Positions 18,969-22,097 of a DNA stretch of 64,000 bases are shown in pieces. Position 1 is the stretch's first letter. Every line of letters starts with the position of its first letter. The position numbers and the translations under genes are program-made. The notes beneath the pieces are model-generated. The model did no database searches, had not been told where the DNA came from, and was given only the letters and a program-made list of their open reading frames with translations. The DNA is from an uncultured Bacteroidota bacterium (GTDB lineage Bacteria > Bacteroidota > Bacteroidia > JABEUT01), in the NCBI GenBank assembly GCA_903916255.1, contig CAIWVW010000034.1:1-64000 (forward strand), given 5' to 3'.

Positions 18969-19586
18969 TTACTTTTTATCGGTTGTACCCCCTGAAGCCC
19001 CAGAACTGGAAGAGTTCTTCTTTTTAAGCATATCTTTACTCTTATTATGAATGCCAGGATATGATAATCTTTGAGGCCCTTTTTGGGTTTTAATAGCTTT
19101 TGATTTACCTACCCCCGGATAGGAATAACTAGAGTTGCTTTTATTGGTGCTTCCGGCTGCGCCGGATGAACCTGCGCCTGCGTGAGAAGAAGAACCTGAA
19201 CCTGACCCTCCATGCGAGGATGAGCCTGAGCCATGACCGGAGGATGAAGAAGAGGAACCGGAAGTGCCACCATATGGAGAAGTATAGTTGCTTTTAGGCC
19301 CGGATGATGAATAGCTGCCGCTAGAATAGCTTGAACCGGTTTTTTTAGCACCTGTAATTGAACTATACATTGAATTGGAGCCGCTCCCGGAGGATGAAGA
19401 GCCTGAACCAGTACTACGCTTTTTACCAAAAGAACTATTGAATGCTCCTGCATTCTTGTTGCCAAATGAGCCGTTTGACATACCGGGTTTTTTTGACCCC
19501 ATTGTCGAGCCTAATTGGGCATAAATGCCAGAGGCGGTAAAAAGATTTACCCCAATAAAAAGTAGCGTTTTTTTTAACAACTGCAT
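18969..19586 (-). CDS. Gly/Ser-rich low-complexity secreted protein
   Basis: Not recognised beyond composition. I place the start at 19586 (MQLLKKTLLFIGVNLFTASG, a signal peptide ending near IYAQ). A TATCTTTG promoter box at 19610-19617 lies upstream of this ATG but inside or beyond the two earlier possible starts, which excludes them. The ~180-residue mature protein consists mainly of Ser, Gly, Lys, Asn and Tyr in stretches such as SGSGSSSHAGAGSSG, with two SYPG(V/I) motifs near the end. It is likely disordered and exported. It converges with the SRAP gene with a 9-bp gap. Confidence 0.65.
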   Translation of the reverse strand: MQLLKKTLLFIGVNLFTASGIYAQLGSTMGSKKPGMSNGSFGNKNAGAFNSSFGKKRSTGSGSSSSGSGSNSMYSSITGAKKTGSSYSSGSYSSSGPKSNYTSPYGGTSGSSSSSSGHGSGSSSHGGSGSGSSSHAGAGSSGAAGSTNKSNSSYSYPGVGKSKAIKTQKGPQRLSYPGIHNKSKDMLKKKNSSSSGASGGTTDKK

Positions 19587-19666: not shown

Positions 19667-19699
19667 AAAAAAAAGCCCCCCGGTAATCAACCGGAGGGA
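19667..19699 (-). terminator. Strong rho-independent terminator
   Basis: On the minus strand CCCTCCGGT - TGATT - ACCGGGGGG forms a 9-bp stem (one G-U) followed by C and eight U residues. This is the clearest intrinsic terminator in the window and ends a minus-strand transcript crossing 19700-19960. Confidence 0.85.
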
Positions 19700-19840
19700 C
19701 CCTCTTTAACCAATCGAAACACTCCTATTTCGATTGGAGCTCTATGGAAAAAACGTCCTTCTTTTTACTAACCTTTAATTCAATTGGAAAGGCGTTTCAA
19801 TTATAGAAACGGGAGGCGTTGGCCAAACGTTGGGTGGGTT
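19700..19840 (-). ncRNA. Candidate structured RNA: serial hairpins before a terminator
   Basis: This 141-bp stretch has no plausible ORF but at least four successive short dyads. They are a perfect 10-bp stem CCAATCGAAA/TTTCGATTGG (19710-19719 with 19728-19737), CCTTT/AAAGG (19772-19776 with 19788-19792), a 6-bp GTTTC/GAAAC-based stem (19794-19798 with 19806-19810 plus a flanking pair) and CGTT/AACG (19817-19820 with 19826-19829). It lies between two minus-strand terminators. It may be an independent small RNA or the end of a longer 3' UTR. The strand is inferred from the terminators. Confidence 0.45.
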
Positions 19841-19842
19841 GT

Positions 19843-19880
19843 AAAAAAATAATCCCCCCACAACTAAATGAGAGGGGATT
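19843..19880 (-). terminator. Rho-independent terminator after the three-way-junction element
   Basis: Minus-strand AATCCCC (19874-19880) pairs with GGGGATT (19851-19857), followed by A and seven U residues. The 16-base loop is long, but two more G residues can extend the stem. It follows the three-way-junction element directly. Confidence 0.65.
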
Positions 19881-19884
19881 CTCT

Positions 19885-19960
19885 GTATTGTCCGGCTTTC
19901 CGTCTTGCGACGATACCTATGAAAACGACCTCAAACCCCTTTGAGGGAGCCGGCACAACT
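19885..19960 (-). ncRNA. Candidate three-way-junction RNA element
   Basis: A closing stem of ten pairs with one bulged base (19888-19897 with 19948-19958, CCGGCT/AGCCGG extended by TTGT/ACAA) encloses two arms. One is a 7-bp CCTCAAA/TTTGAGG stem (19929-19935 with 19940-19946). The other is CGTC-GCAA-GACG (19901-19912), which has a GNRA tetraloop only when read on the minus strand. The element starts 59 bp after the stop of the barrel-protein gene and is followed by a terminator. I do not recognise a known RNA family. It could be a 3'-UTR-derived sRNA or a protein-binding site. Confidence 0.5.
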
Positions 19961-20019
19961 CCAGTTTCATACTATATAGAATCATTTAATTGAAAAAGGT
20001 TTAATGGCTGTATGTTAAA

Positions 20020-21375
20020 TTATAAAGTATATGACACTAGCAGTTTCGCCCCTGTATTATAGAAGTAAAGATTTTCCCCGAAGAATGATTTGTTATCAAC
20101 CGGTGTCATAAAATATATCATAAGGTAAGTTGAAAAATGGCGGTTGAAAGTATATCTGTAAAGTCCATAAGCAGATGCAGTCAATGTATTATATCCGTTC
20201 AAGTGGATATTTTGCGAATAGTTCTGGTAGTTCGCGGGCGGGTTATTATCCAGTTGCTGATAAGTGGTTGCAGAGGCAGTGCTGCTTAACAAAAACGATA
20301 CACTTCCACCTAAACCCAAACTGCTTTTATGCCCGACAAATTTTTCAAACTGTACCGGAATGCTAAGGTAATACAAGCGTTTGGTGGTTATTGCCGAATC
20401 ATTAATAAGGTTCGGGTTTTGCACCGATGAATGCTGGTAGTTATAGGTATAAGAACCCATGTGCCCGAAATCGCTGAATTGAATTCCTGTTTTAAGAAAC
20501 CATTTCTTGCTGAGGTAACGGGTATATCCAACACCAACAACATAATTGAAGCCGGAGCCTTGCGTAATATTGATACTTGGCGACCAGCCACCGCTGTAAT
20601 AGGTTCCTGCATCAATAGAAATCATTTGTTTTTTGCCATTGTAAATTCTCGGTTCATCTGAAAAACGCTGTGGCAAACTACTTGCAGTATCGGGCGCTTT
20701 GGTATTTACCTTAGCCACCGGAGGAGCAGGAACTTTAGGCGTTACAGGCGGTGTAGAGTTTACAGGCAATTTAGCCTGTGTTAGCGGAGCTTCCGATGAT
20801 TCCTTCACCGAAATAACATTTTTTTCCGCAGTGTTATTTTCAACATCAGCAATGGTTTTATTCAAATCGGCAATTTCCTTGTCTGATGCTCCAATAGCTG
20901 AATTGCCCGATTTTGTTTTATGTTTTTTATTGCCCGCATTTTTCAAAGGTTGTGAATTGGCAGCTACTGAAACTGCTTTAGTTGCCTGTGTTTTATTCGC
21001 AGAAGCAACTGAATTGTTTGAAGAATTTGATAATAAATTGTTAGTTGAAATTGACGGCGTGGAATTTATAGTCTGCCTAGTTGTAGTTGCAGCAGTTGCA
21101 CTATTTGTTGCAGCAGAAGGCGATGCAGTATTTGATTTCACACTATTGGAAACTACGTTTGCATTTCCGATTGTGCTTTTCCATTCAAAAATGCCTGCCG
21201 TGCCTATGGCACAAAGCAATAATGCCAATGAACCTAAAATGAATAAGGTGCGTTTCTTTTTCGCCCGCGATTCATCAATCATTGTACGCATGGCTTTCCA
21301 GTTCCTTTCATCGAAAGGATGTTCCTTTTCGCTGAACTTGCTGCGTAAAATGTCGTTAAAATTGTTGTTGCTCAT
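20020..21375 (-). CDS. Sigma-operon membrane protein with C-terminal outer-membrane barrel
   Basis: Protein of 451 residues with three parts. A charged N-terminus (~residues 1-40, FDERNWKAMRTMIDESRAKKKR) precedes a single transmembrane helix (~41-63), a ~180-residue linker rich in Ala, Asn, Ser, Thr and Lys follows, and a ~200-residue beta-rich C-terminus from ISIDAGTYYSGGWSPSI resembles OmpA/OmpX-type eight-stranded barrels. The start codon overlaps the end of the ECF sigma gene by 4 bp, so the two are translationally coupled. This is the position of an anti-sigma factor, but no known anti-sigma domain is visible. Such a layout would reach from cytoplasm to outer membrane. Confidence 0.7.
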   Translation of the reverse strand: MSNNNFNDILRSKFSEKEHPFDERNWKAMRTMIDESRAKKKRTLFILGSLALLLCAIGTAGIFEWKSTIGNANVVSNSVKSNTASPSAATNSATAATTTRQTINSTPSISTNNLLSNSSNNSVASANKTQATKAVSVAANSQPLKNAGNKKHKTKSGNSAIGASDKEIADLNKTIADVENNTAEKNVISVKESSEAPLTQAKLPVNSTPPVTPKVPAPPVAKVNTKAPDTASSLPQRFSDEPRIYNGKKQMISIDAGTYYSGGWSPSINITQGSGFNYVVGVGYTRYLSKKWFLKTGIQFSDFGHMGSYTYNYQHSSVQNPNLINDSAITTKRLYYLSIPVQFEKFVGHKSSLGLGGSVSFLLSSTASATTYQQLDNNPPANYQNYSQNIHLNGYNTLTASAYGLYRYTFNRHFSTYLMIYFMTPVDNKSFFGENLYFYNTGAKLLVSYTL

Positions 21376-21938
21376 CCTGCTACTAGTTTATATAAGTTCG
21401 GGTTAATTCGTAAAATCATTTCCTGTAATTTCTGCCGAGATGCATTCAAATGCCACCGCGATGTGCCTTCCGTAATGCCCAGCATGCCCGCAATTTCCTT
21501 ATGCGAAAATCCATCGATGGCATACATGTTAAATACCTTTTGGCTCACAGGCGGCAGTTTCACTATCAAGGCGTGTATTTGTTCCACATCCATTTTTACC
21601 AATGCGTTGTTCACCTCTGTATCTTCCTCAATCTGGTCATAGTCTTCCACATATTGCACATGTTCTTTCTGCACTTTCTTTTTGCGGTATTCATCTATCA
21701 GCGTGTTCACCATTACCCGGTGCACCCATGCCTTAAACGAGGTTTCCAACTGGTACTTTTTCAGGTTGGTTAATATTTTAAAAAAACCGAGATTCAGCAT
21801 TTCCCTGGCTTCTTCGCGGTCGTTCGAATATCTTAGACATATAGACATAAGGTAACTGTAAGTCAAGCGATAAAGCTCGTACTCTGCCCGTTCATCTTTT
21901 TGGATGCACGCAGTTATTATCTCAGTCTCAACCTTCAT
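21372..21938 (-). CDS. ECF-type RNA polymerase sigma-70 factor
   Basis: Sigma factor of 188 residues with only regions 2 and 4, as in ECF sigmas. Region 2 shows YLMSICLRYSNDREEAREMLNLGFFKI (~residues 30-57) and FKAWVHRVMVNTLIDEYRKKK (~68-88). Region 4 shows LPPVSQKVFNMYAIDGFSHKEIAGML and the helix-turn-helix ITEGTSRWHLNASRQKL (~155-172). It should direct RNA polymerase to a small set of promoters under control of a partner protein, most simply the membrane protein whose gene it overlaps by 4 bp. No TAnnTTTG box was found in the 150 bp upstream, in keeping with autoregulation by a different promoter type, though this is inference. Confidence 0.92.
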   Translation of the reverse strand: MKVETEIITACIQKDERAEYELYRLTYSYLMSICLRYSNDREEAREMLNLGFFKILTNLKKYQLETSFKAWVHRVMVNTLIDEYRKKKVQKEHVQYVEDYDQIEEDTEVNNALVKMDVEQIHALIVKLPPVSQKVFNMYAIDGFSHKEIAGMLGITEGTSRWHLNASRQKLQEMILRINPNLYKLVAG

Positions 21939-22097
21939 GTAGTAATGTACCCTATAACTTGCCGTTTGTCAATATAAACGAACCCTATAAGGCAAATGTT
22001 GGGTACTAATATATGAAATTTCAGATAAATACCCAATTATATGAAGGTTATCAGGGAGATAGGTGGCAAAATATGTTGTTTTATTCCGTGTTTATCC

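Follow-up and report, generated by a model that had tools for sequence, protein, structure and literature searches.

Base-pairing small RNAs (sRNAs) of the Bacteroidota are known mainly from Bacteroides, where the RRM-type protein RbpB binds such sRNAs. Two of the Bacteroides sRNAs, GibS and FopS (RF04182 and RF04319), have been shown to pair at start codons and thereby block translation (PMC7366714, PMC11697453). The dual-membrane-spanning anti-sigma (Dma) proteins of Bacteroides have a layout of helices, tether and barrel, and in Dma/Das systems an ECF sigma factor stands beside such a protein, whose helices are N-terminal (PMC13088901).

The locus described here lies in the window, by which we mean the whole 64,000-nt stretch of DNA that was analysed, from an uncultured Bacteroidota bacterium. 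A small RNA element on the minus strand (about 19959-19843) follows an ECF sigma/barrel operon, and a second conserved RNA lies beyond it. The features, in the direction of transcription, are:

21976-22002, minus strand: ECF-type promoter CCAACATTT-N13-CGTTT of the sigma operon, conserved in 4/4 genomes
21372-21938, minus strand: ECF sigma factor gene (Pfam and NCBIfam)
20020-21375, minus strand: gene for a candidate Dma-like anti-sigma protein with a C-terminal eight-stranded barrel (structure model; OmpA/OmpX/NspA-like barrel matches)
19975-20004, minus strand: putative promoter-like block TTAAACCTTTTTCAATTAAATGATTCTATA directly upstream of the element, recurring in relatives
19948-19959, minus strand: 5' strand of the closing stem, GUUGU-G-CCGGCU (fold; covariation in 8/10 pairs, 0/500 shuffles)
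19929-19946, minus strand: first hairpin, CCUCAAA-GGGG-UUUGAGG, which folds in 4/4 genomes
19913-19928, minus strand: conserved exposed stretch UCGUUUUCAUAGGUAU, the proposed seed, constant in sequence while the stem diverges
19901-19912, minus strand: small second arm CGUC-GCAA-GACG (fold), not conserved
19887-19897, minus strand: 3' strand of the closing stem, AGCCGG-ACAAU (fold, flank pairing, covariation)
19843-19880, minus strand: intrinsic terminator of the element (fold), a G+C hairpin and U run after the element in 4/4 genomes
19807-19833, minus strand: ECF-type promoter CCAACGTTT-N13-CGTTT for the next transcript, after the element in 4/4 genomes
19667-19754, minus strand: second RNA, a hairpin with the invariant loop UAGGAGUG and a terminator, conserved

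The model of the 451-residue barrel protein has helices in the N-terminal part (up to residue 61), followed by a disordered tether that reaches about residue 247 and by a barrel of eight strands similar to OmpA, OmpX and NspA; overall confidence in the model is low, with the barrel strands at 84-87 pLDDT. An ECF sigma gene is thus found beside a protein with N-terminal helix, transmembrane helix, tether and barrel, the operon layout of Dma-type systems, and by this layout we read the host operon as probably Dma-type, with a putative anti-sigma activity. Here an RNA element lies behind the operon; the Dma2 paper makes no mention of an sRNA.

The promoter before the sigma gene and the one after the element share the motif CCAAC[AG]TTT-N13-CGT. 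In a count over whole genomes, the four that bear the operon contain 15 copies of this motif (reversed control: 2), and the other seven contain 4 (reversed control: 7). The remaining sites in the four genomes lie mostly before genes of large secreted proteins. Given these positions, before the sigma gene and mostly before secreted-protein genes, we consider it probable that the operon regulates itself and that its regulon is related to secretion or the cell surface. Examples of motif sites before large secreted-protein genes lie at loci L102, L105, L106, L107, L111, L114 and L117.

All described parts of the element are present in its minimum-energy fold. Positions 19959-19948 pair with 19897-19887 in a closing stem of 11 bp plus one bulged base, where an earlier reading made from the sequence alone (the sequence-only reading) had rightly seen a closing stem and counted 10 bp. 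The GCAA loop forms on the minus strand only, the U-tailed hairpin that follows is the terminator at 19880-19843, and the element begins about 59 bp past the stop codon of the barrel gene (20020), each as that reading had described. Inside the stem, 16 bases of UCGUUUUCAUAGGUAU are unpaired, and 13-16 of the 16 are unpaired in the fold of every genome that carries the element. The folding energy is more favourable than that of shuffled sequences by a modest margin only (z -2.2 for the minus strand, -2.7 for the plus strand), so that the strand and the reality of the element are settled by comparative evidence and not by energy. The element is present as a single copy in its own genome. As the sequence-only reading had expected, it is absent from Rfam: the window yielded no match to it at the gathering score, and a lax threshold returned weak, implausible matches only.

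A BLAST search of 11 genomes of the genus found short matches in three relatives (G010, G006 and G004), confined to the hairpin and the exposed stretch, each immediately after the barrel-gene orthologue of the same ECF sigma/barrel operon and on the same strand. Among the surroundings of barrel homologues, the element was present at 4 of 30 loci, namely its own and those of the three relatives; it was absent behind more distant barrel homologues, most of which have a lipoprotein-type gene directly next. At L069-L091, loci of such more distant barrel-protein homologues, the lipoprotein-type gene mostly takes the place where the RNA element would sit. Neither promoter nor element was seen at the 17 sigma homologues of less than 50% identity that were examined. 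When 395 genomes of the class were searched with a model of the RNA core, the fourth true member scored E 6e-12 and the next match 8e-5, and class-wide searches with models of the two RNAs returned only the same four genomes above a wide gap.

The interior of the junction is near-constant across the four genomes. The exposed stretch is strict in three of them, and G004 has one altered core base and two changes at the 5' edge. The closing stem differs in sequence in each genome, and pairing is retained in all. In a hand-edited alignment of only these four sequences, from which the non-conserved inserts were omitted (the variable second arm of the window's genome and G004, short inserts of G010 and G006), 8 of 10 closing-stem pairs have changed on both sides and 90.9% of cells pair (0/500 shuffles), against about 50% when the partner is moved by one base; over the whole structure, double changes affect 9 of 17 pairs (0/500 shuffles), with slid controls far lower. 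In a duplex test of the immediate flanks, the 5' and 3' flanks of every genome pair better than shuffled ones (combined p 3e-7); the own partner is best in three of the four, and for G006 the partner from its near relative G010 is slightly better. This test was decisive, whereas counting the closing-stem pairs in folds of the whole sequence, with shuffled flanks as the control, did not decide the matter for single sequences. In the relatives, the first hairpin contains wobble pairs (U-G, G-U), favouring the minus strand.

In G010 and G006 the GCAA-capped second arm is weak or missing, and G004 has a different, larger arm in its place. Because this arm is unconserved, the defining architecture of the element is a variable closing stem, a fixed hairpin, a fixed exposed 14-mer and a terminator; the three-way junction with its GCAA loop, by which the sequence-only reading had described the element, is not supported as a defining feature. 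The check proposed by that reading, conservation and covariation behind similar operons, was positive in the three relatives (0/500 shuffles), and its claim of a real element is borne out by the fold, by the same preceding gene in these relatives and by the covarying stem. We regard the existence of a conserved structured RNA as near certain.

The exposed stretch contains the 14-mer GUUUUCAUAGGUAU, which is antisense to AUACCUAUGAAAAC, a start context of the AUG-AAA type. In Rfam, the GibS consensus starts with GUGUUUUUCAUAGUAUUAG and the BTnc231 consensus (RF04180) with ACGUUUUUUUCAUAGAG, and both share UUUUCAUAG with the exposed stretch, in a common run of 9 nt; a shared run of at least 9 nt was found for 25 of 20,000 random genomic 16-mers with the GibS 5' seed and for 26 of 20,000 with BTnc231. 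As candidate families for the element, GibS and FopS were rejected, their covariance models giving no match to the element at the gathering or a lax threshold, and so was BTnc231, whose model gave no match.

Within its own genome, pairing of the seed with start regions exceeds that of 98 of 100 shuffled seeds, and the same comparison found pairing with coding regions not above chance. There are 44 copies of ACCTATGAAAA in the four genomes, where the reversed control gives 13, and most sites in the window's own genome lie at start codons of exported proteins. One lipoprotein with ACCTATGAAAA at its start is orthologous in three of the four genomes, with predicted duplexes of -15.6 to -17.0 kcal/mol, and the region upstream of its gene carries a AAACCTTT-N11/12-RTCTA block, as is found before the element. 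The target statistics cover 30% of the genome (1.13 Mb), within which ACCT before ATGAAAA starts shows a mild excess (3 against 1.8 expected). The duplex scores mark start regions generally and not a defined target set, and the changed core base of the G004 seed has no matching change in the candidate target of that genome. The lipoprotein gene, a candidate sRNA target that encodes a Gly/Tyr/Ser-rich product in three genomes (L285, L278 and L272), has a strikingly conserved 5' region, AATAAACCTTT...AGTCTAACCTT...ACCTATGAAAA.

The sequence-only reading had raised a 3'-UTR-derived RNA as one option. That origin is possible, and a primary transcript is equally possible, since a conserved promoter-like block lies just upstream of the stem. 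In this block, AAACCTTT and RTCTA are separated by 11-12 nt, at the same position in the relatives and also upstream of the candidate target gene. The block is only suggestive as a promoter lead, because the pattern, which was derived from these very sites, was noticed after the fact and is matched as often when reversed (2 against 2 matches). The ECF motif precedes the sigma operon in four genomes and directly precedes the second RNA in the window's own genome, G004 and G006; from these positions, the first element would be reached by an ECF promoter only via read-through, and its own upstream block appears to be of another type.

The region between the two terminators, in which the sequence-only reading missed a second conserved RNA, holds the ECF-type promoter of that RNA. 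Behind this promoter, the second RNA comprises a 5' UUCCAUAGA, a 3' AAGAGGG and a terminator; it turned up only in the same four genomes (own, G004, G006 and G010; E below 1e-19) and contains three compensatory pairs. In G010 (L118:2805-4247), a secreted-protein gene lies between promoter and second RNA, and the RNA forms the 3' end of that gene. The 5' part of the second RNA resembles BTnc231, but assignment to that family was rejected, with 17.2 bits against a cut-off of 80.4 and higher scores for other loci in the same search; a BTnc231 search of the genus found no credible member, the best match resembling, by eye, an ordinary terminator downstream of a gene. At a lax threshold the GibS and FopS models matched the second RNA weakly (19.6 and 15.6 bits against 115 and 56). 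Past the second terminator, in the downstream direction, comes a gene for a Ser/Gly-rich exported protein (window 18969-19586, minus strand), for which Pfam and NCBIfam gave no match and which has a TAnnTTTG-type promoter box, TATCTTTG.

Together, these observations favour, at a probability of about 0.58, a trans-acting sRNA at the 3' end of the ECF sigma/Dma-like operon that would block the translation starts of surface proteins. That the element is an sRNA is likely; the odds for the start-codon mechanism are about even to somewhat better. We infer a discrete transcript of about 105-120 nt, made from the 3' end of the presumably autoregulated operon, in which the covarying stem and the hairpin would serve as a scaffold holding the 14-nt GUUUUCAUAGGUAU single-stranded. 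This seed would pair with ACCUAUGAAAA-type translation-start regions of exported and surface proteins and repress these targets by blocking translation, in the manner of the Bacteroides sRNAs GibS and FopS, so that the sRNA would form the repressive arm of an envelope/secretion regulon. The envelope-linked sRNA suggested by the sequence-only reading is in keeping with the tie to the sigma/barrel operon and is plausible, its pairing and targets being predictions.

We read the element as a new RNA family that belongs to a known kind, the base-pairing sRNAs; its enclosed seed is unusual, and its host is a sigma operon of the Dma type. It shares with GibS (consensus) the run UUUUCAUAG in a conserved unpaired stretch, and with GibS and FopS an intrinsic terminator and start-codon pairing, the latter proposed here from complementarity; BTnc231 has the same run at its 5' end. 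However, GibS and FopS have an open seed at the 5' end, whereas the seed proposed here lies in a junction loop inside a covarying closing stem, in an element that is single copy and linked to a sigma operon. The Sigma-E-dependent RybB and MicA of enterobacteria follow a similar idea, an sRNA arm through which an active envelope sigma factor reduces envelope proteins, but are unrelated to the present element in sequence and structure. Neither is known to be encoded at the 3' end of the sigma operon.

A different role for the same RNA, which we consider rather unlikely but a serious alternative, is that of a cis-acting 3'-UTR element that stabilises or matures the sigma/anti-sigma mRNA, its conserved stretch being the site of an RRM-type or other RNA-binding protein. 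Its position 59 nt past the stop codon and its terminal terminator would suit this role, as would the unpaired, U-rich character of the conserved stretch, and each of the four genomes has two matches to RRM-type proteins. Yet the stretch matches both start-codon antisense and the GibS seed beyond chance, and the promoter-like block immediately before the element points to a transcript of its own.

The conserved core within a variable stem is, on paper, also riboswitch-like, but a ligand-binding or catalytic RNA appears improbable: the element lies behind genes and not before them, Rfam gives no match, and the core consists of a single linear stretch and a plain hairpin. Its own terminator and the separate promoter next downstream argue against this as well. 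As the sequence-only reading held, the element is no leader of the next gene. We give very little credence to a plus-strand gene for a small protein, for which an ATG stands in the context ATACCTATGAAAAC (MKTTSNPFE...), as its frame and length vary among the genomes (MKTTSNPFEELI, MKTPQLPLREN, MTITPKPP...) and it is the base pairs of the minus-strand RNA that are kept. The least credible of all is a mere fancy terminator or chance folding, which would fit an energy only 2.2-2.7 standard deviations better than shuffles but not an element whose core is conserved, whose stem covaries and whose position is syntenic in four species; for the structured part it is already refuted by the covariation.

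The trans-acting sRNA may be one of a pair. We tentatively suggest, as a possibility we hold at less than even odds, that Dma-type systems of Bacteroidota can carry an RNA arm of two structured sRNAs, which act on start codons to repress surface proteins, with the sigma factor activating secreted proteins in parallel. One of the two would lie at the operon's 3' end and present its seed from a closed stem, and the other would be driven by the promoter that the sigma factor itself uses. The recent description of Dma-type anti-sigma systems includes no RNA component, and a conserved sRNA with a GibS-like seed on such an operon would connect these systems with the base-pairing sRNAs. If true, this would also give a testable rule for the whole phylum, that UUUUCAUAG-type stretches are general anti-start-codon seeds for mRNAs without Shine-Dalgarno sequences.
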